The position numbers and the translations under genes were made by a program. Source: Halorubrum cibi (GTDB lineage: Archaea > Halobacteriota > Halobacteria > Halobacteriales > Haloferacaceae). From it: 64,000 bases of DNA. Position 1 is the first letter of the stretch. Every line of letters begins with the position of its first letter. Shown here piece after piece: positions 24,172 to 36,101 of the stretch. The notes beneath the pieces are model-generated. The model made no database searches. It saw only the letters and a program-made list of their open reading frames with translations, and was not told the DNA's origin. The stretch lies in assembly GCF_900182635.1 (NCBI RefSeq), contig NZ_FXTD01000010.1, positions 62,001 to 126,000 of the forward strand, written 5' to 3'.

Positions 24172-24363
24172 TCAGAGCTCGAAAACGAGTCCGTAGCCGA
24201 AGAGCGCCAGGAGCCCGGTGAAAAGCGCCAGGAGCACGCGACGCTTCGTTATCCACGATCGCGTCCCGAGCGAGGACGGTCGTCCGGGTCGGTGACCGTT
24301 CCGCCGTCGAAAGGAGGTCCGGCGACCCTTCGGAACGCAGCGCTCCTCACGCCGATCGCCCAT
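24172..24363 (-). CDS. Small basic single-pass membrane protein at the end of the SipW locus
   Basis: 63 residues from ATG at 24363. A strongly basic first two thirds (RREERCVPKGRRTSFRRRNG) is followed by one hydrophobic segment (VLLALFTGLLALFGYGLVF) that ends the protein. It overlaps the acidic protein gene by 17 bp in another frame and is last in the leftward locus. The basic charge is exceptional in a halophile and could bind the acidic partner proteins. No family is recognised; the call rests on position and membrane pattern. Confidence 0.45.
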   Translation of the reverse strand: MGDRREERCVPKGRRTSFRRRNGHRPGRPSSLGTRSWITKRRVLLALFTGLLALFGYGLVFEL

Positions 24364-25447
24364 CGTCACCTCCGGTTTCGTCGCCGGTATCATCGCTGGT
24401 GTCGCCGGTGTCGTCGTCGCTTTCGTCATCGTCCGCGTCGGCGGTTCCGCCGTCGCTGCCGTCACCGTCGTCGTTCCCGTCCTCGGACGTCCCCGTTTCG
24501 TCGTCACCGCTCTCGTCGTCACCGCTCTCGACACCGTCGCCGTCGGTGGTATCGATCCCTTCGGTCTCACCGTTTTCGGTGTTCGTCGTCCCGTCATCAC
24601 CGCTCTCGTCGTCCTCGCCGTCGATCCCATCGGAGTCGTCCTCCGGTTCTGGGTTCTGCGCGTCGTCCGTTCCGTCCGTCTCGTCATCGGCGTCGTCTCC
24701 GTCGCCCTCGTCGCCGATGTCGTCGCTTTCGCTTCTTTCGTCGGGGCCATCACCGGAATCAGAGTCGTCACCGGCGTCGGAGTCATCACCGGCGTCAGCC
24801 CCGTTGCCTCCGTCTTCCCCGCCGTCACCGGCGGCGTCCTCGTCGCTTCCGGCCGTCCTCTCGTCGTTCTCGACGTCGCCGTTCTCGTCGCTCTCCGTAT
24901 CGTTCTCCGGCTTCGTCGGTTGCTCCGATTCCGTCTCGGAGGCCGTCTCGTTCGTCGATTCGTCGTCGCCGGCGGCTCCGTCGTCGGGATCGCCACCGGT
25001 GTCGGCGTCGGCATCGCTGGCGTCACTATCGCCGTCGGCGTCGGCATCGTTGGCGTCACTATCGCCGTCGCCGACGTCGTTGCCGTCTATCTCGGGGGTC
25101 TCAGCGCCTCCATCGACGGAGGTTCGGGTGGTTCCGACGCTGTTGCCCTGGCCGACGCCCTTCTTTTCACCCCGGTCGGCACCGTTTCCGTTGCCCCGAC
25201 TGGTGTCATTCTCGTCGTCACCCTCGGCCGTCTCGTTCCCGACCGTGGAGTCGTTCGTCTGCGTCGTCTGCGATCCGTTCTCCACGGAGCTCTCCTCGGA
25301 TTCGAGTTGCTCGAACTCGTCGACGCTCGCGAAGTTCCCCTGGACGGTGACCTCGTCCGAGAACACTGCGAGCGTCCCGGCTCCGCCGCCGAACCCCGCG
25401 AGTAACACGAGAACGGCGACCGTCACGACCGACGCGGGGCGGGTCAT
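24347..25447 (-). CDS. Highly acidic SipW-type surface protein with low-complexity tail
   Basis: 366 residues. One N-terminal hydrophobic segment (SVVTVAVLVLLAGFGGGAGTL) runs into LAVFSDEVTVQGNFAS, the A-x-FSDE-x-(V/F)-x-N pattern of SipW-type signal regions. There is no twin-Arg motif. The remaining 320 residues are almost only Asp, Glu, Gly, Asn, Ser and Thr in short repeats (such as DSDAGDDSDSGD and ADADGDSDASDADADTGG), so they should be disordered and strongly negative outside the cell. It overlaps the signal peptidase gene by 4 bp (ATGA). A role as a matrix or salt-binding component is inferred. Confidence 0.72.
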   Translation of the reverse strand: MTRPASVVTVAVLVLLAGFGGGAGTLAVFSDEVTVQGNFASVDEFEQLESEESSVENGSQTTQTNDSTVGNETAEGDDENDTSRGNGNGADRGEKKGVGQGNSVGTTRTSVDGGAETPEIDGNDVGDGDSDANDADADGDSDASDADADTGGDPDDGAAGDDESTNETASETESEQPTKPENDTESDENGDVENDERTAGSDEDAAGDGGEDGGNGADAGDDSDAGDDSDSGDGPDERSESDDIGDEGDGDDADDETDGTDDAQNPEPEDDSDGIDGEDDESGDDGTTNTENGETEGIDTTDGDGVESGDDESGDDETGTSEDGNDDGDGSDGGTADADDDESDDDTGDTSDDTGDETGGDDGRSA

Positions 25448-26655
25448 CGTCCCTCCTCGTCGTCGGCCTCGGCGGCCTCGGCGATCTCGTCGGGCTCGCC
25501 GGCCTCGACGACCGCCTCCGACCCGCCGTCCGCGGCGGGCGCGATCAGGGGCCGCTCGAAGATCCCCATCGGATTTCCATCGTCGGTTCCCCTCGATCCG
25601 CCGGGGCGATCGTTCTCGTGATCGTCGAAGTCCTCGAGGTCGTCACCGTCGGCGTCCGATCCGGCGTCGTCGCCCTCGGCGGGGGCGTCGCGGTCGGCGT
25701 CGCGGTCCCCGTCGTCCCCGTCGGCTCTGCCGTCTCCGCCGTCTCCGCCGTCTCCGCTGCTTCCGTCGCCCGTGTCATCTCCGCCGTCGTCCGCCGAGCG
25801 GGACAGGTCGTTGGACGGTCCCTCGCCGTCGCCGGACGTGACGAGGAGTACGCCGGCCATCAGGAGCGTCATGCCGGTTCCGACCGCGACCGCGATGGAG
25901 AGAGCGGTCTGAAGCGTGTACGCCGTGTACGCCGCGTACGGGACGAACGCCAGGAGGACGCCGACGGCCCCCTCCACCGTCCGGTTCGTCACGACGAATC
26001 CCGGCTCGTCGGCCGCGTCGGACTCGCTTTGGGCGGATTCTGTCGCGGCCGCGGCAGTCGTAGCCGTCGTCTGCGTGTCCATCGCTTCCGCGTCCGCGTC
26101 GGCGTCGACGACGGCCGATCCGGCCGCCGTCGAGTCCCCGCCGCGCCCGGTTCGAGAGCCGTAGAGGCTCCAGACCTCCGAGAGCGCGAGCAAGGCGAAC
26201 GGCAGGACGACGAGCAGGGTGAACCCCGCCGGCGAGTCGGTGAACTGGATCACGTACCCGATGTACGGGATCGAGAACGCCACCGCGCCGAGGACGTTCG
26301 AGGCGGGCACCAACGCGGAGTCCGGCCCTTCGTTGGCGTCGCCCTTCGTCTCGAAGGCGACCTCTCCGCCGGTTCCCGTCACCCCGATCACGCGGTGTGT
26401 CACCGGCACCTCGCTCTCGCCGCGGACGAACGTGATCACGTCGCCCTCGCCGATCGCCGCCGCGTCGCGTTCGTCGACGACGACCACGTCGCCGGGGGCG
26501 ATCGCGGGCGTCATGCTCGCCGTCAGGACGACGAAGCTGTACTCCGCCCCGACGACCGCCGGCACCGCGTACACCACGAAGGGCGCGACGACCGCGATCA
26601 GCAGGGCGATCCCGAGCAGGTTGGCAAAGCGTTTGAACGTGATAGGTGAGTTCAT
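25444..26655 (-). CDS. SipW-like signal peptidase I (ER/archaeal type) with membrane and acidic extension
   Basis: 403 residues. The peptidase domain covers about 1-170: an N-terminal membrane anchor, the catalytic Ser47 in VLTASMTPAIAPGD, His87 in VPVTHRVIG (His in place of bacterial Lys), and Asp106 in KGDAN. That is the Ser-His-Asp pattern of the SipW and ER group. More membrane segments follow (142-162, 228-245 and 250-275), then about 130 disordered acidic residues. It is embedded in the operon of its presumed substrates and overlaps both neighbours by 4 bp, so it is probably the dedicated processing enzyme. Confidence 0.9.
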   Translation of the reverse strand: MNSPITFKRFANLLGIALLIAVVAPFVVYAVPAVVGAEYSFVVLTASMTPAIAPGDVVVVDERDAAAIGEGDVITFVRGESEVPVTHRVIGVTGTGGEVAFETKGDANEGPDSALVPASNVLGAVAFSIPYIGYVIQFTDSPAGFTLLVVLPFALLALSEVWSLYGSRTGRGGDSTAAGSAVVDADADAEAMDTQTTATTAAAATESAQSESDAADEPGFVVTNRTVEGAVGVLLAFVPYAAYTAYTLQTALSIAVAVGTGMTLLMAGVLLVTSGDGEGPSNDLSRSADDGGDDTGDGSSGDGGDGGDGRADGDDGDRDADRDAPAEGDDAGSDADGDDLEDFDDHENDRPGGSRGTDDGNPMGIFERPLIAPAADGGSEAVVEAGEPDEIAEAAEADDEEGR

Positions 26656-28163
26656 CGTAGGTCCTCCGAGTCGCAGAGCGCGTTTTCGTCGGTAAACGTC
26701 CCGCCGACGAGTTCGTAGAGCGTTCCTCCCGATCCGTCGGAGCCGAACGCGTCTCCGATCGTAAGGACCTCCGAGCAGCTGGTGTGGATCTCCACGCTCT
26801 CCGAGGCACCTTCATCGTCGCCGTCGACGATCTCGATCGTCGTGTTCTGTCCGAGGCTCGTTCCGACGTTCCCCCACGCTTGAGAGACGTCGCTGCCGTC
26901 GGCGGTGAACGTTCCACCGGGCGCGATCGTCGCGTCCTCGAACACGACCTCGTTTCCGCCGCCCGTCCGCTGGGTGGTGACCCGGATGGTGGCGTCGGAT
27001 CCGCCGTCGTATCGGAACGTCAGGTCACGGTACCGGACGTTTCCGCCGCACTCGCAGTCGCCCGGATCGTCGTGGTCGTCATCGCCGTTCTCGCCGTCAT
27101 CGTCGACGCAGACGTCGATCTGGATGTTGCTGATTCCGGCGAGACCACCATTCCCCGGACCCTCCGGCGAGTACAGTATCTCACTCGTGTCGTTGCTCGG
27201 CGGCTCGATCGGGTACGTCTTCGTGTCGTTTCCGCCCTTGATACGGACCTCACAGAGCCGTCCGGCCGGGTCGCCGTTCGCGTCCACGAGCTCGAAGCTG
27301 ACGCCGACGGCCTCGCCGCCGTCCTTGTCCTCGACGTCGGTGACGAAGAGGTACGCGTTGCCGGCGAGTTGACCCTCGTCGATCGGGAGCCACGTCGAGA
27401 CGTCGTCGATGTCGCTGATGACGACGTCTCCGTCGATGTTGGCCTTCCCAACCGGGTCACAGTTCGGACACTCCTCCTGCGGCTCGTCACACGGTCCGAA
27501 CTCCGCGTAGGGGTTCGATCCCGCGGCGTCGTCCTCGGAGACGTGCCGGCACTGTTCGGTATAGAGCAAGAACTCGAACTCGGTCGTCCGCCCGGCCGCG
27601 GCGGCCGGCGCGTCCTCGGGAAGCTCCCAGGCGAGTTCGATCTCGATACCGTCGCCATCGGGGTCGAGACACGCGTCGCCGTCGAGGTCGTCAGCCCGGA
27701 GTCCGCCGGCGAACTCGCGGCGGAGCTCCGAGAGCGACCCGGACGGGAACACCCAGTCGTCGCCGATCTTGAGTGAAACCTCCAGCGCGTTGCCGAGCGG
27801 GTCCTGCGTCCGGGGGCAGGTCGTCGCGAACCAGAGGCGCGCCGGGTTGGTTCGAACGGAGACGTCGAACGTGACGTCGCCCCAGTCGCCGCGGTCGATC
27901 GGGTTCTCGGGCGCGTAGCTCACGGTCCCGTTCGAGACGGCACAGCCCGCGTCCCCGTTCGAATCCGAACACGACACGTCGAGTTCGACCTCGCCGGCAC
28001 CGATCTCGTTGCGCGGCAACGTCTCCCCGTCGGAGAGGTACGCGAACGTGCCCGCGCCGCTCGCGGCACCGATCGCGCCCAGTCCGCCGAGCCCGGCGAG
28101 GAGCCGGCGGCGGCTGAAGTCGGCCGGTCCGGAATCTCCTCGTCCGCTCCCGTCGGTGGTCAT
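26652..28163 (-). CDS. Tat-exported SipW-dependent protein, large Cys-containing variant
   Basis: 503 residues. The twin-Arg motif SRRRLLAGLGG (about 17-27) is followed by GAGTFAYLSDGETLPRNEIGAGEVELDV, the camelysin/TasA-type cleavage and first strand region. The first 220 residues form the beta fold ending FLLYTEQCRHVSEDDAAGSNPYAEFG. A Cys-rich joint (CDEPQEECPNC) leads to a second domain of about 270 residues (GKANIDGDVVISDIDDVSTW onward) with its own Cys cluster (CVDDDGENG, DCECGG) that I do not recognise. The ATG overlaps the stop of the previous gene and the stop overlaps the peptidase start. Confidence 0.8.
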   Translation of the reverse strand: MTTDGSGRGDSGPADFSRRRLLAGLGGLGAIGAASGAGTFAYLSDGETLPRNEIGAGEVELDVSCSDSNGDAGCAVSNGTVSYAPENPIDRGDWGDVTFDVSVRTNPARLWFATTCPRTQDPLGNALEVSLKIGDDWVFPSGSLSELRREFAGGLRADDLDGDACLDPDGDGIEIELAWELPEDAPAAAAGRTTEFEFLLYTEQCRHVSEDDAAGSNPYAEFGPCDEPQEECPNCDPVGKANIDGDVVISDIDDVSTWLPIDEGQLAGNAYLFVTDVEDKDGGEAVGVSFELVDANGDPAGRLCEVRIKGGNDTKTYPIEPPSNDTSEILYSPEGPGNGGLAGISNIQIDVCVDDDGENGDDDHDDPGDCECGGNVRYRDLTFRYDGGSDATIRVTTQRTGGGNEVVFEDATIAPGGTFTADGSDVSQAWGNVGTSLGQNTTIEIVDGDDEGASESVEIHTSCSEVLTIGDAFGSDGSGGTLYELVGGTFTDENALCDSEDLR

Positions 28164-28966
28164 TGTGACACCCCCGAGTCAGCCGAGTCAGCCGAGTCCG
28201 CCGATTCCTCGTGGTCCGGCACCGGTTCCGCGAACGGGTTGCCGTCCCACGCGCAGTCGACCGCGTAGAACTTCACGTCGAAATCGACGGAGCCGCCCTT
28301 CCCGGCGTTGCCGCCCTCGCCGATCGGGAATCTCCAGTTGAACGCGAGACAGCGGCTCTCGTCGGGTCGTAGGCAGCCGTTGTCGAGGACACCGGGATCG
28401 ACTTCGATCCCTCCGACGAGGTCGTCGTCGTCGAGTTCCGCGAGAGTTCCCGAAAAGATCCCGTCGCCGAAGGTCGGAAAGTTCGGAAAGCTCTCGACGT
28501 TCTCCGCGCCGGCACAGCCGCCGACGCCGAGGAACCCGGTGTCGTAGCGAACGGACATCTCGATCCGTTCCGCGAGCGCCTGACTCGCCGCGTCGTTTCC
28601 GATCTCCGGATCGATCTTCATCCACACCCGGACGCCGTCCGGGACGTTCTCGCCCGGATCGTCGATCCGGAGGCCGACGCTCGTCGAGCCCGCGTCCATC
28701 GGGAGGACGTTCTCCTGGTCGATGAGGCGGACCGACGCGTCGGTGACCTCGTCGCTCGGGCTCTCCCGGACGAGCTGACCGTTGTATCTGCTGCGCCAGC
28801 CGACCAAGAGCTGCGTGGGGACGTCCGACTGCGCGTAGGTATAGCTCGTGTACTGGTCCGGCGTGCTCGTCGGCCGGCCGCCGGCCATCCCGAGGGTGGC
28901 GAAGCCGACGGCTCCGATGCCCGCGAGTGCCTGCCGCCGAGTCAGATGTGTGTCTCGTTTCGTCAT
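28160..28966 (-). CDS. Tat-exported surface protein of the SipW locus
   Basis: 268 residues from ATG at 28966. The twin-Arg signal LTRRQALAGIGAVGFATLG is at about 8-26. The AYFSDE motif of its neighbours is not conserved, but the domain keeps NVPDGVRVWMKIDPE, a central beta region, CLAFNWRFPIGEGG and a degenerate C-terminal signature FYAVDCAWDGNPFAEP. The last residues are a Ser/Asp repeat (ESADSADSADSG). It is probably a divergent member of the same fold and is first in the tightly overlapping part of the operon. Confidence 0.7.
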   Translation of the reverse strand: MTKRDTHLTRRQALAGIGAVGFATLGMAGGRPTSTPDQYTSYTYAQSDVPTQLLVGWRSRYNGQLVRESPSDEVTDASVRLIDQENVLPMDAGSTSVGLRIDDPGENVPDGVRVWMKIDPEIGNDAASQALAERIEMSVRYDTGFLGVGGCAGAENVESFPNFPTFGDGIFSGTLAELDDDDLVGGIEVDPGVLDNGCLRPDESRCLAFNWRFPIGEGGNAGKGGSVDFDVKFYAVDCAWDGNPFAEPVPDHEESADSADSADSGVSQ

Positions 28967-29288
28967 TCGTGTTCCGTGGTCGGCTCCGGACGGCCGGTTC
29001 GTCGATCGTCTCCACGCGTCCTCGGTACGTATGTATGCGCCTCCTACCCAAGCGGTTCGGATACCGAACCACATTGATTGGGCCATTGAACGACCGTCAA
29101 GGGATGCCTATCAGGTAGGTCGTCCCCCGCTCTCGTCGTCGATCGTCTCCGAATCCCGTCGTCGGTCGCGTCCGTCGCGATCCGATACGGGAATCCCACC
29201 GGCGGAGTCGAACCGCCGTCTCGACCGTTCCAACCGAGGAATTCGGGTGGGAGGGGGAATCAGGTTCCGAAGAACCCGTTGTGCGTGA
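28967..29288. promoter_or_regulatory. Intergenic control region inside the SipW locus
   Basis: 322 bp without a gene. It contains a perfect inverted repeat GGTTCGG-ATA-CCGAACC at 29054-29070, a TATA-like TACATACG stretch near 29025-29035 for the leftward gene starting at 28966, and the tRNA-like element listed separately at 29194-29252. It probably starts a second transcript for the genes to its left. Confidence 0.5.
29194..29252 (-). other. tRNA-like intergenic element, site 1
   Basis: Read leftward, TCCCACC (29252-29246) pairs with GGTGGGA (29200-29194) in a perfect 7-bp acceptor-like stem. Inside are a small hairpin TTCC-TCGGTT-GGAA and a T-arm mimic GGCGG-TTCGACT-CCGCC (29217-29201) with a canonical T loop. 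No anticodon arm is present. Similar elements occur at 30927-30981 and 33740-33782, always in gaps of this locus. Confidence 0.6.
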
Positions 29289-30902
29289 TCAGGCGGTCCC
29301 GGTCGCGTTCCCTCCGTTCGTCACGTTGCCGTCGTTCGTTCCGTTCGAGTCGTCGGGGGCGTACGGATTCGTTTCGCCGTCGTTGTGGCGGCACTGTTCC
29401 GCGGCGAAGCCGATCGCGAACTCCACGGAGTCGGTCTGAATCTCGTTGCCGACCGTCGTGGGAAGTTCCCACTCGAAGCCGAAACAACGGGTCACGGAGT
29501 TGGTGAAACAGATCCGTTCTTCCGACTGTACGTTGGCGTCCAGTTCGATACCCGCTTCGAGCGCGGTCATCACCTCGCGTAGCGTACCCTCGGCGATGAC
29601 CTCCTCGCCGGTGAGGATGACCGAGGAGATCTGCGAGTAGATGTCGTCGAGATCCGTGCCGGTCGGCGAGTCGTAGTAGAGTGTGGTTCCGTTGCTCGAA
29701 CTCGCCATGTCTATGAGCGTGTTCTGGGCGGTGCTTCCGTTACTGACACCCAACCCGATCGTGAACACGGTGATTCCATCGTTTTTCGCGTCCGTTGCCG
29801 CGTCCTTCGCGTTCTGGACGTGGTCGGAACCGGCACGATCCGACTCGTTCGGCTCGCCGTCGCCGAGCAGAATGATGACCTCGTCGACGCCACTTCGACC
29901 GTTGTCGTTGAGCTCGTCGGCCGCCAGATCGACACCGGCGTCCATCATGGTGCGTCCGGCATCGGAGATCCCGGCGGGCTCGGGCTGGAGATACGTTTCG
30001 ACGTTCGAGTGGGTACTCGTGAGGCCCTGTCGGAGCTGCCCGGTCGATTCGAACGTCACGAGGCCGACTCGGTCGTTGGGGCCGAGGTTCTCGACGAAGT
30101 CCAGCGCCGCCGCCTTCGCCTGTTCCATCTTGCTCCCGGGACCGCCTCCCATGGAGCCGGAGTTGTCGATCGAGAGCATCACGTCGACGCCCTCGCTCTC
30201 CTCGTCGCGCTCTCCCTGGTGGACGTTGTCGCAGTTGTCGTCGTACCAGATCTTCGCCCGGATCGAGTCGGCGAGCTGCCCGTCACCGTCGGGGTCGTCC
30301 GTGGGATCCCCCATCTCCTCGAGCGCCTCGATTTCGGGTTCGGTGTAGCCGTTCTGGTTCTCGTCCGTGAGCATCCCGCCCATCCACATGTAACCGGGAT
30401 TGTCGTACAGGTGGGTGCTGAAGGTGACCTCGCCGTAGTCGCCGGGTTTCACGTCGCCGATGCGGATGAGCGCGTCCTCGAGGTCTCCCGCGTCGATCAG
30501 CTCGTCGCGCTGGAATCCCTCACCTTCGCCGGTCTCGGGGTCGTAGACGCCGTTCGCGCCGATGACCCAGTCTTCGGCTCCGGGGTACTCGGTCCGGTTG
30601 GGAACCTGATCGAGGAGGTACACGCCGGTGTCGTCGTCGGTCGGTTCCATGTCCTCGTCGACGAACGTGGCGTTCGGGTAGTTCTCCTGGAGCTCCCCGA
30701 GACGTCCGGGACCGCCCCGGTACGTCATCCGGTAGTCCATTTTCAGATCCAGCTCACCGGCGGTGAGCGTGTTGCCTTCGAACGACTCGTCGTCGCTGAA
30801 GTAGGCGGTCGTTCCGAGTCCTGCTCCCGCGGAGGCGACGCCCACGGCCCCGAGGCCGGCGAGCATCTTGCGCCGCGAGAGTCCGATTCCTTTGTCAGTC
30901 AT
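29289..30902 (-). CDS. Tat-exported SipW-dependent protein with inserted vWA domain (1)
   Basis: 537 residues from ATG at 30902. Twin-Arg motif LSRRKMLAGLG (8-18), then GTTAYFSDDESFEGNTLTAG (30-49), the SipW/TasA-type signature. The beta fold runs to KIWYDDNCDN near 217-226. A vWA domain is inserted at about 239-430, with MIDAS DNSGS at 246-250, the Thr region AGRTMMDAG near 315-323 and ILLGDGEPNES. The fold then resumes (RCFGFEWELPTTVGNEIQTD) and ends with FAAEQCRHNDGETNPYAPDD. The tail is Asn/Gly/Thr-rich with N-glycosylation-like sites. It is likely an adhesive or capping subunit of a surface filament. Confidence 0.82.
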   Translation of the reverse strand: MTDKGIGLSRRKMLAGLGAVGVASAGAGLGTTAYFSDDESFEGNTLTAGELDLKMDYRMTYRGGPGRLGELQENYPNATFVDEDMEPTDDDTGVYLLDQVPNRTEYPGAEDWVIGANGVYDPETGEGEGFQRDELIDAGDLEDALIRIGDVKPGDYGEVTFSTHLYDNPGYMWMGGMLTDENQNGYTEPEIEALEEMGDPTDDPDGDGQLADSIRAKIWYDDNCDNVHQGERDEESEGVDVMLSIDNSGSMGGGPGSKMEQAKAAALDFVENLGPNDRVGLVTFESTGQLRQGLTSTHSNVETYLQPEPAGISDAGRTMMDAGVDLAADELNDNGRSGVDEVIILLGDGEPNESDRAGSDHVQNAKDAATDAKNDGITVFTIGLGVSNGSTAQNTLIDMASSSNGTTLYYDSPTGTDLDDIYSQISSVILTGEEVIAEGTLREVMTALEAGIELDANVQSEERICFTNSVTRCFGFEWELPTTVGNEIQTDSVEFAIGFAAEQCRHNDGETNPYAPDDSNGTNDGNVTNGGNATGTA

Positions 30903-30926
30903 GATTGGTCCCCCGGAGGGGAACGT

Positions 30927-30981
30927 CCCACTGGCGGGTTCGAACCGCCTGATCGACCGCTCGTTCGGAGCTTCGAGTGGG
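30927..30981 (-). other. tRNA-like intergenic element, site 2
   Basis: Read leftward, CCCACT (30981-30976) pairs with AGTGGG (30932-30927). Between them are a D-arm-like hairpin GCTC-CGAAC-GAGC (30971-30959) and a T-arm mimic GGCGG-TTCGAAC-CCGCC (30949-30933). It lies in the 119-bp gap between the two vWA genes. After it, the leader of the next gene folds as GTTCCCC-TCC-GGGGGAC just before the ATG at 30902; this stem needs one G-U pair, which works only in leftward RNA. Confidence 0.6.
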
Positions 30982-31021
30982 GTAAGCGACGGAAGTCGCT
31001 CGCGTCTGGATGTTCGTCGCT

Positions 31022-32758
31022 CTATGCGGGACTGATCGTCTCGTCGGCGAACGGATTGTACGTGCCGTCGTTGTGGCGGCACTGCTCCGCGTAGAAGTCC
31101 AGGTCGAAGACGACGGAATCGCCCTGGATCTCGTTGCCGACTTCGTAGGGGAGGTGCCACTCCAACGCGATACAGCGTGTGTCGGAGTTGGGGTAACACT
31201 GCCGCCCCTCGCGGTTGCGGTCGGAGTCGAGCGGATAGCCGCCAGCGATGCCGTCGACCACGTAGTCGTCGAGGAACCCGTCCGAGGTAACGTTCGGACT
31301 CTCCGTGAGGAGGTCGTACAGCGACCCCTCGAATATCGGCTGTTCGCCGCCCGCGGTGAAGCCGATCTCCTCGGCGACGCTCGTGATCGGATCCGTGTTC
31401 GGGTCGGTCGGTCCGTTGATAGCCGCATCGATGTCGGTGTCGAGCACGAGCATGAACCGGTGGTTTCCGGGGAGCGTGCTGATCTCCTCGAGGACGTCGA
31501 CGGAGTTCGGCGGCGTCCCGAACCCGACGATCAGGTATCTGTCGACCTCTCCGCCCTCCGATCGGAGATTGTCGCTGGCCGCAGCGAGGAACTGGCTCGT
31601 ATCGACGTTGATCCCGTTCGTGATCAGGACCATTACCCGTTCATCGTCCTCGGAACATTCGGCGAGCGCATCGGCCCCCGCCTGGATCGCGTTCGGTAGG
31701 TCGGTACCGCCCTGTATCTCGTCCTGATAGTCGATCGTCTGAAGGCCCGTGGAGTCGTTGTAGCTTCCACCGTCGGTGCCGACGACGTCGTTCACGTCGC
31801 TCGTCGGCAGGAGGACGGTATCCGCGGTCGTCGTCCAGTTGGTGAGTCCGACGCTGAACGGGGCGGTGTCGCCATCGCTGCTTTCGGCTCCGTTTCCGGT
31901 GTCGAGTCGATCGACGTACGTTTCGAGCGCCTCGATCAGGAGTTTATCCTTATACTCGGTGACGGATCCCGTGGGTGCCGAACTTCCCATCGAATCGGTG
32001 TTGTCGACGACGAACTGGATACAGACGTCGCTCCCCTCGTCGAAGAAGTTGTCACAGTCGTCGTCATACCAGAGCGTGGCCTCGATCTCCTTCGCGAGCT
32101 GTGCTTCCGCCTCCGCTAACGCGATCACGTCGTCGTCGGTGAACTCCTCGCCGAGTTCCTCGGCGTACCGCTCGACGAGCGCCTCGCGTTTGGGGTCGTT
32201 CAATTCGCCGACGGTGTGTTCGAAGCCGCTCGCGTTGAGCCAGAGGTACGCCGGGTTGTCGAAGACGTGTTTGCTGATCGTGATCTCGCCGCGGTCTCCG
32301 GGCTTGACGTCGTCGAGGTCGATGACGGGGCCCACGAACTCGTGATTTCCGCTTCCGTCGGTGTCCTCGAAGCTCGCGAACTGGCCGCGGTAGGCCTCCT
32401 CGATCGCGTCCTCGTCGGCATTGGCCGGAAGTCCGACCAGCGTCGGGTCCTCCTCGAGCTGGAATCGCGTGTAGATCGGGTCCTGCCGGTCGTCGCCGTC
32501 CAGGTCGGGGTAGGCGTTGACCGGCTCCCACGTCGTGTGGTCTTCGGGGTCTTGCCCCTCCAGACCCATGTAGTAGCTCTGTTGCCAGTCCATCCGGAGC
32601 TCGACCGCTCCGGCCTCTATCGTGTTGTCGGTGAAACCCTCCTCGTCGCTGAAGAACGCGGTGGTGCCGAGGCCCGCGCCGGCGCTCGCGACGCCGATGG
32701 CCCCGAGGCCGCCGAGCAGCGTGCGGCGGGAGAGTCCCGTGATTTTCTTGTCTGTCAT
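31022..32758 (-). CDS. Tat-exported SipW-dependent protein with inserted vWA domain (2)
   Basis: 578 residues. Twin-Arg LSRRTLLGGLG (9-19) and GTTAFFSDEEGFTDNTIEAG (31-50) open the protein. The beta fold contains DDVKPGDRGEITISKHVFDNPAYLWL and reaches EATLWYDDDCDN near 227-237. A vWA domain follows directly (about 246-445) with MIDAS DNTDS at 252-256, a Thr variant of DxSxS, and GGTDLPNAIQAG as the second metal loop. The fold then resumes (RCIALEWHLPYEVGNEIQGD) and ends FYAEQCRHNDGTYNPFADE. The insertion point is the same as in the gene at 29289, so this is a paralogue. Confidence 0.82.
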   Translation of the reverse strand: MTDKKITGLSRRTLLGGLGAIGVASAGAGLGTTAFFSDEEGFTDNTIEAGAVELRMDWQQSYYMGLEGQDPEDHTTWEPVNAYPDLDGDDRQDPIYTRFQLEEDPTLVGLPANADEDAIEEAYRGQFASFEDTDGSGNHEFVGPVIDLDDVKPGDRGEITISKHVFDNPAYLWLNASGFEHTVGELNDPKREALVERYAEELGEEFTDDDVIALAEAEAQLAKEIEATLWYDDDCDNFFDEGSDVCIQFVVDNTDSMGSSAPTGSVTEYKDKLLIEALETYVDRLDTGNGAESSDGDTAPFSVGLTNWTTTADTVLLPTSDVNDVVGTDGGSYNDSTGLQTIDYQDEIQGGTDLPNAIQAGADALAECSEDDERVMVLITNGINVDTSQFLAAASDNLRSEGGEVDRYLIVGFGTPPNSVDVLEEISTLPGNHRFMLVLDTDIDAAINGPTDPNTDPITSVAEEIGFTAGGEQPIFEGSLYDLLTESPNVTSDGFLDDYVVDGIAGGYPLDSDRNREGRQCYPNSDTRCIALEWHLPYEVGNEIQGDSVVFDLDFYAEQCRHNDGTYNPFADETISPA

Positions 32759-32806
32759 GTTTGTGTGATATGAATGGGGAGATTCCCCCGTCGGTCAGGT
32801 CTTCGT

Positions 32807-33715
32807 TCAGTTCCCGCCGTCGTCACCGGAGACGTCGCTCTCGTTGGCCGTATCGTCGCTCTCCGCCTCCTCCGCGAACGGGTCGTCGTTGTGGCGGCAC
32901 TGCTCGGCCGCGAAGTGGACGTCGCCGCTGAAGGAAGCGCCCTGGACGAGGTTGCCGGGAGACATCGATTCCGTGATATCGAAGGAAGTTCCGTCGACTG
33001 CGACCTCCTCGCCGATGTCCCCGTGCGAGGGTAAGTAGAGGTAGACGCAGACCTCGACGGAGTCGGCCGCCAGCTCCGCGCCCTCGACGTCGGACTCACA
33101 GGGGAGGTGACAGTACTCGACGACCGGCTCGTCGTTTTCGACGCCGGCGTACGCGTGGATCAGTCCGCCCTCGTCCCACTCGTCGATGAGTTCGCCGAGG
33201 GTGCCCTCGAAGACGATCTCTTCGCTGTCGCCCGCCTGCTGGTCGTCGATCGTGACGACCGCGAGCATGTACTCGCTGAGCAGACCGGAGGCGTCGACGT
33301 GGTCCACACCGTTCTGGTTGCCCGTCGACTCGTCGCCGTCGAGCGTGATCTGGACGTAGCCGGGGTTGTGTTTCACGCAGACGTCCCAGCAGTACTTGTA
33401 GGAGTCGCCGGGCTTCGCGTCCGTGATGTCGAGGAAGCCGTCGACGACTTCGATCGTGGCGTCGTCCTCTTGGGCCGCAGCCAGCATCGCGTCGAACGTC
33501 TGTTCGTCCGGCCCGATCCCGTCTTGGTCGACGACGTGGGTCGACTGCGTGACTTCGAGCTCGAACTGCCCCGCGGTGATCGTGTTGTTCTCGAAGCTCT
33601 CCTCGTCGCTGAAGTACGCGGTCGTCCCAAGGCCCGCACCGGCGGAGGCCACGCCCATCGCCCCGAGCCCGACCAGCATCTTACGCCGCGAGAGTCCGAT
33701 TGTATCGTTTTCCAT
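32807..33715 (-). CDS. Tat-exported SipW-dependent surface protein
   Basis: 302 residues. Twin-Arg LSRRKMLVGLG (8-18) and GTTAYFSDEESFENNTITAG (30-49) give the TasA/camelysin-type start. A single beta fold follows with DAKPGDSYKYCWDVCVKHNPGYVQI, a central EIVFEGTLGELIDEWDEGG and an unusual C-terminal FSGDVHFAAEQCRHNDDPFAEE. There is no vWA insertion. Six Cys residues could form disulfides. The leader between this gene and the one before contains tRNA-like site 3 and a TCCCC-ATT-GGGGA hairpin. It is a likely main filament subunit. Confidence 0.8.
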   Translation of the reverse strand: MENDTIGLSRRKMLVGLGAMGVASAGAGLGTTAYFSDEESFENNTITAGQFELEVTQSTHVVDQDGIGPDEQTFDAMLAAAQEDDATIEVVDGFLDITDAKPGDSYKYCWDVCVKHNPGYVQITLDGDESTGNQNGVDHVDASGLLSEYMLAVVTIDDQQAGDSEEIVFEGTLGELIDEWDEGGLIHAYAGVENDEPVVEYCHLPCESDVEGAELAADSVEVCVYLYLPSHGDIGEEVAVDGTSFDITESMSPGNLVQGASFSGDVHFAAEQCRHNDDPFAEEAESDDTANESDVSGDDGGN

Positions 33716-33739
33716 GATGTGTCATCCCCATTGGGGAAG

Positions 33740-33782
33740 TCCCACCGACGGAGTCGAACCGTCGTAACGCGCCCGCGTGGGA
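33740..33782 (-). other. tRNA-like intergenic element, site 3 (minihelix form)
   Basis: Read leftward, TCCCAC (33782-33777) pairs with GTGGGA (33745-33740), enclosing a 13-nt linker and the T-arm mimic GACGG-TTCGACT-CCGTC (33763-33747). No D-arm hairpin is seen, so it is a minihelix of acceptor plus T arm. It stands in the 94-bp gap between the first and second genes of the locus. Confidence 0.58.
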
Positions 33783-33809
33783 GGTAACCGAAATACAGGA
33801 TCGTCCCGA

Positions 33810-35174
33810 TCAGCGGAAGTCGATCCCCATCCAGTCTTGCGTGGTGTAGTCGCCCTCAGAGCCCTCGAATCGGACGTTCCCGGTCACAGTCACGCCAGTG
33901 GTCGTGTCCACGCCCGGAATGGCGAGGTACATCGCGCCACCCGAGGAACTGACCATCGACGGCGAGGCGGGAGACCCGTTCACTTGAACGTCTTTAACGA
34001 CGGTTTCGACGCCGTTCCCGCTCGCACTGTACGCAGTGAGTGCGACGTCGACGGTCGACGGGACGCCACCCTGCCACTCCGGATCGCCGGTGGCTGAACC
34101 GTTCGCCGTGCCGTCGGTGACATCAGTGTCAACTACGGTCCGACCGTTGATCTCGAGCGAGGCCGTGGCGGGTGAACTGCCGGTGTCGATCTGAGCGACG
34201 AACCCGACGTCCTGGTTCGCGGGGAATACGTCTCCGAGGTTGCTACCGAACACGTCCTGGTCTTCGACGCCTGGGCTGTCACCGTGGACCTGGATCTCGC
34301 CGCGTCCGGATCCACCGCGAGCGAGTGCCTGCATGTTCAGCGCCTTCTCGAAGGAGATCGACGAGAACCCGTCACCCGTCGCGTACGGGCTCGCCGGGTT
34401 CGCGTTGTGGCGTTCCTGTTCCGCGTAGAACTCGAAGTCGAACTCCACGGCGTCGGTCTGGATCTCGTTTCCGACCTCGGTGGGGAGCACCCAGTCGATA
34501 CAGAGGCACGGGCCCTGCTGGGTGCTTCCGTCCTCGCTGGGCGGGTACGCGCCGGAGTCAGTCCCGCCGTCGACGAAGAATCCGAACTCGAGATCGTCCG
34601 CGAGGTCCGCGAGCGTGTACCCCTCCGGGTTGTTCATCTCACGGATCACGGTGTAATCCTCCGTTTCCGTGTCGTATTCGCAGTACGAGACCGTGACCAG
34701 AATCGACTCGCTCAGTTCACCCTCCCCCTCGCCGTCGTTCGGCGAACCGATCGTCCCGGCTCCGGTAGCGTCATCTTCCGCCTCCGGCTCGGTTTGGCCG
34801 TTCTCGTAATCGATCGCTCCGCTTTCGCTACCGATCCAGAGCCACGCGGGGTTGTCGACGACCTTCGGACAGAACACCAATTGGCCGCTGTCGCCGGGTT
34901 TGACGTCGGAGAGTTCATATGAGTAGTCGGAGGGCATCCCGTTGATCGTGCCCGAATCGCCGCCGCTTCCCAGACGGTTACCCTGATCATACGAAGTCTC
35001 GTAGTCGACGATCAGGTCGAGTTCGCCCGCGGTGAGCGTGTTGTCGGTGAAGCTCTCCTCGTCGCTGAAGTACGCCGTCGTTCCGAGTCCCGCACCCGCG
35101 GAGGCCACGCCGATCATGCCGAGGCCGCCGAGCATCTGCCGCCGCGAGAGTCCGAAGTTGTTGTTATCGTCCAT
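33810..35174 (-). CDS. Tat-exported SipW-dependent protein with extra C-terminal beta domain
   Basis: 454 residues. Twin-Arg LSRRQMLGGLG (9-19), then GTTAYFSDEESFTDNTLTAG (31-50). The first domain shows SDVKPGDSGQLVFCPKVVDNPAWLWIG, then CIDWVLPTEVGNEIQTD and FYAEQERHNANPASPYATG, where the Cys of the family motif is replaced by Glu. A second domain of about 185 residues (from SSISFEKALNMQALARGG) is rich in beta-type repeats and has no recognised family. It is the first gene after the main promoter and probably the most expressed surface subunit. Confidence 0.8.
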   Translation of the reverse strand: MDDNNNFGLSRRQMLGGLGMIGVASAGAGLGTTAYFSDEESFTDNTLTAGELDLIVDYETSYDQGNRLGSGGDSGTINGMPSDYSYELSDVKPGDSGQLVFCPKVVDNPAWLWIGSESGAIDYENGQTEPEAEDDATGAGTIGSPNDGEGEGELSESILVTVSYCEYDTETEDYTVIREMNNPEGYTLADLADDLEFGFFVDGGTDSGAYPPSEDGSTQQGPCLCIDWVLPTEVGNEIQTDAVEFDFEFYAEQERHNANPASPYATGDGFSSISFEKALNMQALARGGSGRGEIQVHGDSPGVEDQDVFGSNLGDVFPANQDVGFVAQIDTGSSPATASLEINGRTVVDTDVTDGTANGSATGDPEWQGGVPSTVDVALTAYSASGNGVETVVKDVQVNGSPASPSMVSSSGGAMYLAIPGVDTTTGVTVTGNVRFEGSEGDYTTQDWMGIDFR

Positions 35175-35561
35175 TGGTTATCCCTGGCGTCTTCGGCCAG
35201 TACCCCTCCCTTAGCGGAAGGGGGGATAGTTACGACTCGACACGTCGGATCCTAACGCCGCCATCGGCCGACCGAACCCGACCATCGACCGATATAATCG
35301 CCCGTTCGGCCGAGATGCGCAGATTTTCGGGACTTTAGAAGATCGACCGAAGAGAACGGATGGCGGGCCATACCGGCTGCCTCGGACTGCCTACCGGACT
35401 CGTCGGTACACCCTACCGCTCTCTCTGACACTCCCTACCGGATCCCGTGGGATCGCCTACCGTGGATCGGGGCGGATCGGCCGTTTTCGATAGGTAACAC
35501 GTGACAGACAGTATGGCGCGCATACATATCCTCCCAGTTGTCGTTTACGTTCTCGAACGAG
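35175..35561. promoter_or_regulatory. Divergent promoter region between the SipW locus and its neighbour regulator
   Basis: About 390 bp without a gene. For the leftward locus there is a TATA box ATTATAT (minus strand, 35298-35292) and a leader of about 90 nt with two hairpins (35203-35225, and CTGGC/GCCAG at 35184-35200). For the rightward gene a CATACATATC box lies at 35520-35529. Between the two promoters is the phased array at 35371-35462. Confidence 0.6.
35371..35462. repeat. Five TACCG motifs spaced 21-22 bp apart
   Basis: TACCG begins at 35371, 35392, 35414, 35436 and 35458. Spacings are 21, 22, 22 and 22 bp, two helical turns, and four of the five are CCTACCG. The rest of each unit is only weakly alike (GGAC and CCC near the end). 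It lies about 75 bp upstream of the leftward TATA box. A regulator binding one face of the helix is the simplest reading. Confidence 0.65.
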
Positions 35562-36101
35562 GTGTTTCCCATTTCCCTACAGATCCGATCCGACTCGCTC
35601 CCGGAGACCGTCATCCACGACGTGCTCTCGAACAGCCGCCGGAAGAACGCCCTCCGCGAGCTGCGGACGCGTGGCGGGGCGGTCTCGGTCAGGGAGCTCT
35701 CCGAGGCGATCGCCGCCGACGAGACGGGCGAGTGGCCCGCCCCGCGCTGCGTGCGCGAGAGCGTGTACGCCTCCCTCCACCAGACGCACCTGCCGCGGCT
35801 CCACGACCTCGGCGTCGTCGAGTACGACCGCACGCGCAAGGAGGTCCGCGCGTGCCGGGGCGCACGCGACGTGGAGCGGTACATGACCGTCGTGGCCGGC
35901 TACGGGTTCACCTGGACGGAGCTGTACCAGATGCTCGGCGTCGTGACGCTCTGTGTCGTCCTCGCGGCCCAACTCGGCACTCCGGTGATCGGCGCGATCG
36001 ACCCGCTGCTCTGGACGAGCGGCGCGCTCGCGGCGTTCGCGGTCGTGACCGTCGCCCAGCTCTGGGCGGCCTACCGGCTCTCGATGCCGCTCCCGCGGTG
36101 A
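35562..36101 (+). CDS. Winged-helix regulator with two membrane helices (DUF7344-like)
   Basis: 179 residues from GTG at 35562, chosen because the TATA-like box at 35520-35529 would place a transcript start close to it; an earlier TTG at 35538 is possible. The first 110 residues read as a winged-helix domain (IHDVLSNSRRKNALRELRTRG, VSVRELSEAIA, SVYASLHQTHLPRLHDLGVVEYD). Two membrane segments follow (about 125-147 and 153-176). It points away from the SipW locus and shares its control region, so it is a candidate regulator of it. Confidence 0.72.
   Translation: MFPISLQIRSDSLPETVIHDVLSNSRRKNALRELRTRGGAVSVRELSEAIAADETGEWPAPRCVRESVYASLHQTHLPRLHDLGVVEYDRTRKEVRACRGARDVERYMTVVAGYGFTWTELYQMLGVVTLCVVLAAQLGTPVIGAIDPLLWTSGALAAFAVVTVAQLWAAYRLSMPLPR

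Follow-up and report, generated by a model that had tools for sequence, protein, structure and literature searches.

A candidate TasA-type surface-fibre locus in Halorubrum cibi with SipW-type signals, twin arginines and nested VWA domains

The tapA-sipW-tasA operon of Bacillus subtilis is a closely related described system, having in common with the locus presented here a peptidase gene beside those of its substrates, a signal and N-terminal motif, the TasA jelly-roll and accessory proteins (PMC9674648, PMC10151520). In the sipW-bsaA locus of Clostridium perfringens, SipW is likewise linked to its substrates, which assemble into extracellular filaments; it is bacterial, and the available part of its description mentions neither a VWA insertion nor a twin-arginine translocation (Tat) signal (PMC7395162). 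Among archaea, which are known to have TasA homologues (PMC10151520), the bundling pili of Pyrobaculum, a member of a different phylum, are built from AbpA and are described as TasA-related, donor-strand filaments (PMC9674648, PMC9715654). Here, we describe an operon in a 64-kilobase (kb) chromosomal stretch of contig 10 of Halorubrum cibi (genome 3.18 Mb, 99.5% complete). This stretch is referred to as the window, and all positions are those of the whole window. The letters A to I denote the nine leftward genes and J the divergent gene (Table 1). We consider it probable, at roughly 0.78, that the locus encodes a surface filament or matrix fibre of the TasA type, built as a heteropolymer.

Compared with the Bacillus operon, the haloarchaeal locus adds twin-arginine signals, several paralogues, VWA insertions and the TasA-fold proteins E and F. 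Its candidate regulator is a DUF7344 gene, whereas Bacillus uses SinR. A TapA counterpart was not recognised at the locus, although no TapA-directed search was made. Archaeal TasA homologues and annotated haloarchaeal proteins with SipW-type signals are already known. NCBI annotates the same proteins as "SipW-dependent-type signal peptide-containing protein", for example on plasmids of Natronorubrum, Halomontanus and Halorubrum. The annotation of the plasmid copies of the operon also includes "VWA domain-containing protein" and "signal peptidase I"; E, F and J are hypothetical there and the system is unnamed. New here are the signals of Tat type, the nesting of the VWA domain, two accessory proteins with the TasA fold, the pairing with DUF7344, the repeats at 22-bp spacing and the exchange of cassettes. 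The literature searched contained no paper linking SipW or TasA with haloarchaea, no description of TasA-type fibres in Halobacteria and no mention of DUF7344.

Judged from their sequences, A to F all belong to one TasA-like family, with E and F placed by profile comparison. Protein E matched the family of B with a probability of 99.8 (E-value 1.3e-29) and the N-terminal half of F did so with an E-value of 4.6e-40, while an unrelated profile used as the negative control gave 0.2%. Mature B (269 residues, 44 homologues) was modelled with AlphaFold2 at a mean predicted local distance difference test score (pLDDT) of 74 and a predicted template modelling score (pTM) of 0.74. When this model was compared to PDB chains with Foldseek, the TasA fibre 8aur came first and the TasA crystal structure 5of2 second, both with a probability of 1.00. 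VIA-align ranked three TasA entries highest, with Z scores of 10.3 (170 residues), 9.3 and 9.2, and the next, unrelated entry scored 6.5. The first-pass annotation had proposed a TasA-like fold, and the predicted structure of B, the protein on which the fold check was made, agrees with this. The family sequence profile also matches TasA weakly over the whole domain (E-value 0.02-0.03) in a sensible register, as both close with a conserved strand, N-E-I-Q-G-x-S ... F-x-A-x-Q. AbpA was not among the matches listed for the family profile, Foldseek or VIA; only AbpX (9sj2) appeared, with an E-value of 0.094 in the profile search. A PDB sequence match to sialoadhesin (E-value 0.006) covers just 45 residues and was taken as chance.

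The best-conserved part of the mature proteins is their predicted start after the GTTA cut, (Y/F)FSDEESF--NT--AG, and 42 homologues show no variation at mature residues F2, D4, E6, F8, N11 and G16. The first 56 residues of A to D are 66-76% identical compared to 28-42% for the remainder, and codon identity is similar in the two parts. This similar codon divergence argues for constraint at the protein level and not for recent copying. Gene conversion was rejected as an explanation for the conserved 5' ends, since the paralogues share identical codons no more often in this part than in the remainder. In TasA fibres, each N-terminal donor strand, formed by residues 28-38 at the start of the mature protein, completes the subunit that follows (PMC9674648). 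An N-terminal segment conserved across A to D is what would be expected if the paralogues can join one another in any combination. At the DNA level, a short GC-rich hairpin lies within 45 bp upstream of all four starts (A, B, C and D), which is no more than suggestive since 34% of random 45-mers contain one.

The NCBIfam model of the SipW-dependent signal, TIGR04088 (cut-off 19 bits), exceeded this value in five proteins, A, B, C, D and F, with 21-33 bits (A 28.2, B 32.8, F 22.4). H was slightly below it at 18.5 bits and E gave no match. Four proteins with a shared motif, a fifth with a looser form and a very acidic FSDE-bearing protein had been claimed for the locus, and all were recovered: A to D contain the strict motif GTTA[YF]FSD at residues 30-31, F has GTFAYLSD, and H has GTLAVFSD in a signal without twin arginines, together with a tail that is 35% D+E. 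The twin arginines are present in E and the motif is absent. Only nine TIGR04088 signals were found in the entire host genome, six at this locus and three in one island on contig 3, and so the occurrence of the motif here is not due to chance.

Tat export is established for many secreted proteins of haloarchaea. In each of A to F, twin arginines at residues 10-18 precede the hydrophobic region, which fits the earlier claim of six Tat-type exported proteins. The claim that export goes through Tat also gained ground, as twin arginines stand ahead of the motif in 154/154 haloarchaeal homologues with a recognisable motif compared to 3/15 from non-haloarchaeal SipW loci. On the basis of these signals, A to F would fold in the cytoplasm and leave the cell through Tat.

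The peptidase presumed to process these proteins is G. It matched TIGR02228, archaeal-type signal peptidase I, with 112.9 bits (cut-off 51.85; E-value 1.2e-32), and the Ser-His-Asp set attributed to a SipW-like peptidase was located at Ser47, His87 and Asp106, which are invariant among 14 diverse homologues. With the Bacillus SipW equivalog model NF046067, G scored 108.8 bits, below the cut-off of 190. G is therefore SipW-like by linkage and substrate type and an archaeal signal peptidase I by family. It is the sole SipW-like peptidase of the host genome, where three weaker signal peptidase I matches lie elsewhere. Among 97 related genomes, SipW-type signals were present in 50 of the 53 with a G homologue compared to 2 of the 44 without one (Fisher p 2e-21; within the genus, 37/39 versus 1/13). 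Two of the three G-bearing exceptions without signals match only a fragment of G.

Protein D has a strong VWA domain and C a weaker one. TasA-profile segments flank the VWA in 80 of the 102 VWA-bearing homologues, and in the cases printed these segments stop and resume near the same profile position, about 167-182. The counterpart of this site in the B model falls between strands 118-125 and 131-139, and the D model places the VWA (205-400) between strands 182-187 and 402-407. The shared junction and the modelled strand positions indicate that the VWA is inserted into one loop of the TasA domain. Residues D213, S215, S217, T285 and D315 of the metal ion-dependent adhesion site (MIDAS) of mature D vary little or not at all, and we infer that the VWA domains of D and C serve metal-dependent adhesion. 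The closest fold to the VWA of D is that of Mfa5, a type V pilus tip protein (Z 26.6), and SpaC, an adhesin of sortase pili, also ranks high at Z 23.2. In those unrelated pili the VWA is found on tip proteins, whereas at this locus it sits within the TasA domain of subunits. To our knowledge, neither a Tat signal nor a VWA insertion is known for AbpA pili. Since the PDB match list for the D model was filled by VWA domains, the TasA part of D rests on sequence profiles and the B model. A phage origin was rejected, as only VWA-only matches, at 28%, were found in two unannotated phage contigs.

Table 1. Features of the candidate TasA-type locus, with positions in the 64-kb window
Feature	Position	Strand	Description
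A	33810..35174	-	454 residues, TasA-like, predicted to be exported; RR at 11, GTTAYFSD at 31; variable extra C-terminal region
B	32807..33715	-	302 residues, TasA-like, without insertion; simplest subunit
C	31022..32758	-	578 residues, TasA-like with inserted VWA domain; MIDAS-like DNTDS at 252
VWA domain of C	31448..32014	-	Residues 249-437; PF00092/PF13519 sub-threshold; TasA-profile segments either side
D	29289..30902	-	537 residues, TasA-like with inserted integrin-type VWA; MIDAS DNSGS at 246
VWA domain of D	29604..30206	-	Residues 233-433; PF00092 E-value 8e-19
E	28160..28966	-	268 residues, accessory protein with predicted TasA fold; Tat-type RR, no SipW motif
F	26652..28163	-	503 residues, accessory; TasA-like N domain and Cys-rich C-terminal region
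DUF7467 domain of F	26739..27011	-	Residues 385-475; PF24269 E-value 3.9e-13
G	25444..26655	-	SipW-like archaeal-type signal peptidase I; Ser47-His87-Asp106; acidic tail
H	24347..25447	-	GTLAVFSD signal without RR; very acidic low-complexity tail, 35% D+E
I	24172..24363	-	63-residue basic protein; single C-terminal hydrophobic segment
J	35538..36101	+	Divergent DUF7344 winged-helix protein; C-terminal hydrophobic segments; candidate regulator
Four CCTACCG repeats	35390..35462	+	Starts 35390, 35412, 35434, 35456; 22 bp apart; candidate operator
Conserved leader 5' of A	35175..35262	-	GGATCCGACGTGTCGAGTCGTAACTAT...; near invariant in 7-8 related loci

The first-pass annotation counted eight leftward genes; this was corrected to nine, namely those for the exported proteins A to F, the peptidase G, the acidic H and the small I. 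The overlapping order that it gave for the peptidase, the acidic protein and the 63-residue basic protein stands, as the coordinates of E-F, F-G and G-H overlap by 4 bp each and those of H-I by 17 bp. F contains 14 cysteines, many for an exported haloarchaeal protein, and its C terminus also holds the DUF7467 domain. The N terminus of H is conserved in relatives, and I is conserved in close relatives.

The gene set is kept together in relatives, as had been anticipated. The usual order in named Halobacteria is a divergent J, two to five TasA-like genes, E, F and G, with E or F sometimes unrecognised. Carriers include Halorubrum, Halobellus, Halopenitus, Natronorubrum, Haloarchaeobius, Halolamina, Natronomonas and others, and the operon is also found on plasmids of Natrialbaceae and Halorubrum. 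TnpB and transposase genes (L173:4601-5920 and L174:18223-19389) lie near plasmid copies, consistent with mobility.

The subunit genes are exchanged between species like cassettes, while J and E to G stay. With one relative (genome G019, locus L050), J, E, F and G share 93, 82, 85 and 79% identity, whereas the only counterparts of B, C and D there are paralogues at 30-41%, and A is matched at 43% over half its length. The reverse was found with H. aquaticum (L053), where B, C and D are 96-97% identical and G and F 60% and 65%. When DNA was aligned, the flanks aligned continuously and the middle, about 29-35 kb, either did not align or exceeded the flanks in similarity. D is 76-77% identical to plasmid proteins of Natrialbaceae, another family, and 42% identical to a Halorubrum megaplasmid protein. 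The exchange is well supported by these contrasts in identity between the subunits and J/E to G, together with the DNA alignments and the plasmid matches of D.

In the proposed mechanism, G would clip A to D after GTTA and F after GTFA, freeing the N terminus (Y/F)FSDEESFxxNTxxAG. The freed segment would be the positional equivalent of the TasA donor strand and insert into the next subunit, and a donor segment in common would let all paralogues join one fibre, along which the VWA subunits may show metal-dependent adhesive domains. E, without a clipped donor segment, is a candidate for an acceptor-only end or anchor of the fibre. H, whose signal has no twin arginines, would bear an FSDE peptide, freed by clipping, on an acidic tail that is probably disordered, and would start the fibre. 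It is a candidate TapA-like initiator by analogy with TapA, of which a 14-residue N-terminal stretch is sufficient for biofilm formation (PMC10151520). J, perhaps via the 22-bp repeats, would control expression. Cassettes of subunit genes are exchanged between species with J and E to G retained. Taken together, the locus would encode a diversifying adhesive fibre, a donor-strand filament made of folded subunits exported by Tat, with integrin-like VWA domains built in and cassettes swapped between haloarchaeal species and families while the genes for the regulator, accessory proteins and peptidase stay fixed. We propose this complete scheme tentatively, at a little short of even odds.

Several observations weigh against a TasA-type fibre. 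The global template modelling scores in Foldseek were modest (0.39-0.52), direct sequence similarity to TasA is weak, the hmmscan scores of A and B for the Pfam family PF12389 fall slightly short of its cut-off, the Tat hidden Markov model TIGR01409 scored below its cut-off, and the statistics on the co-occurrence of G and the signals ignore phylogeny. One relative (G044, 82% complete) has subunits, E and J and no clear G; its locus (L085:5079-14897) also has I, lacks a clear F, carries E in mid-operon and is rearranged or misassembled. Assembly by donor-strand exchange is argued from homology, and the parts assigned to E, H, I and J are likewise deduced, those of E, H and I being the weakest steps. 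With the filament so far deduced and none seen, A to F could instead be TasA-fold surface proteins that do not polymerise, that is, monomeric adhesins associated with the surface layer, released by G and binding through their VWA domains. The intact MIDAS in the integrin-type VWA of D and the great variation of A in size and C terminus would suit such adhesins. A monomeric adhesin, however, would not need the donor-strand segment to be the most conserved part of every mature paralogue, and an operon with several paralogues and further accessory proteins of the TasA fold suits a polymer, making this explanation unlikely. Another reading takes the proteins as camelysin-type secreted metalloproteases, following the Pfam name Peptidase_M73 of PF12389. 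This family matched at the borderline, with hmmscan scores of 21.7 bits for A and 21.9 bits for B, just below the cut-off of 22.5, and 23.4 in a six-frame search, above it. The match in B spans mainly the signal and N terminus (residues 19-70), the structural matches are to the TasA fibre, and HExxH occurs in none of A to J, so the protease reading was rejected as highly improbable.

The control of the operon is a separate question from that of the fibre. The divergent winged-helix gene reported earlier was identified as a DUF7344 gene (PF24035, E-value 8e-26), and J and the operon form a conserved divergent pair. In 53 of 65 loci, some of which are duplicate records of a single genome, J is the divergent neighbour of the first subunit gene, and of the 11 DUF7344 genes in the host genome a further four flank its only other TasA-like island. 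Both facts argue for a link between J and the subunits. The CCTACCG array between J and A has an exact spacing of 22 bp, or two helical turns, and at least six related loci show the same spacing. No other pair of copies at this distance exists in the host genome, and a reversed control pattern gave none. That J binds these repeats is a guess. It is quite possible, though we lean the other way, that J and the repeats do not control the operon, with J controlling itself or acting as a membrane sensor and the repeats binding another factor. The position of the repeats, 216-288 bp upstream of the start of A and closer to J, favours this, as does the absence of repeats upstream of most of the wider homologous loci that keep J. 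The leader nearer A, about 90 bp, is almost invariant across related species and contains an imperfect inverted repeat of a C-run and a G-run.

Two other regions of the host genome resemble the locus. The island on contig 3 (L016:5662-13857) contains three TasA-like genes, one with a VWA, and no peptidase, along with the four flanking DUF7344 genes; it is presumably served by G in trans. On contig 11 (L017:223-7317), a DUF7344 gene is divergent from genes for DUF1102 proteins, a signal peptidase I and a DUF5305 protein, and this cluster may be a separate secreted beta-sandwich system with similar logic.

If the proposed TasA-type fibre is correct, Halobacteria own a widespread donor-strand fibre system in which folded subunits are exported by Tat and polymerised outside without an ATP-driven machine. 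How self-complemented TasA-type subunits stay apart until export would then become directly testable. The nested VWA would show how an adhesin may be built into the fibre itself, and the DUF7344 family would gain a concrete candidate target. The exchange of cassettes suggests that partners or viruses exert diversifying pressure on the fibre.

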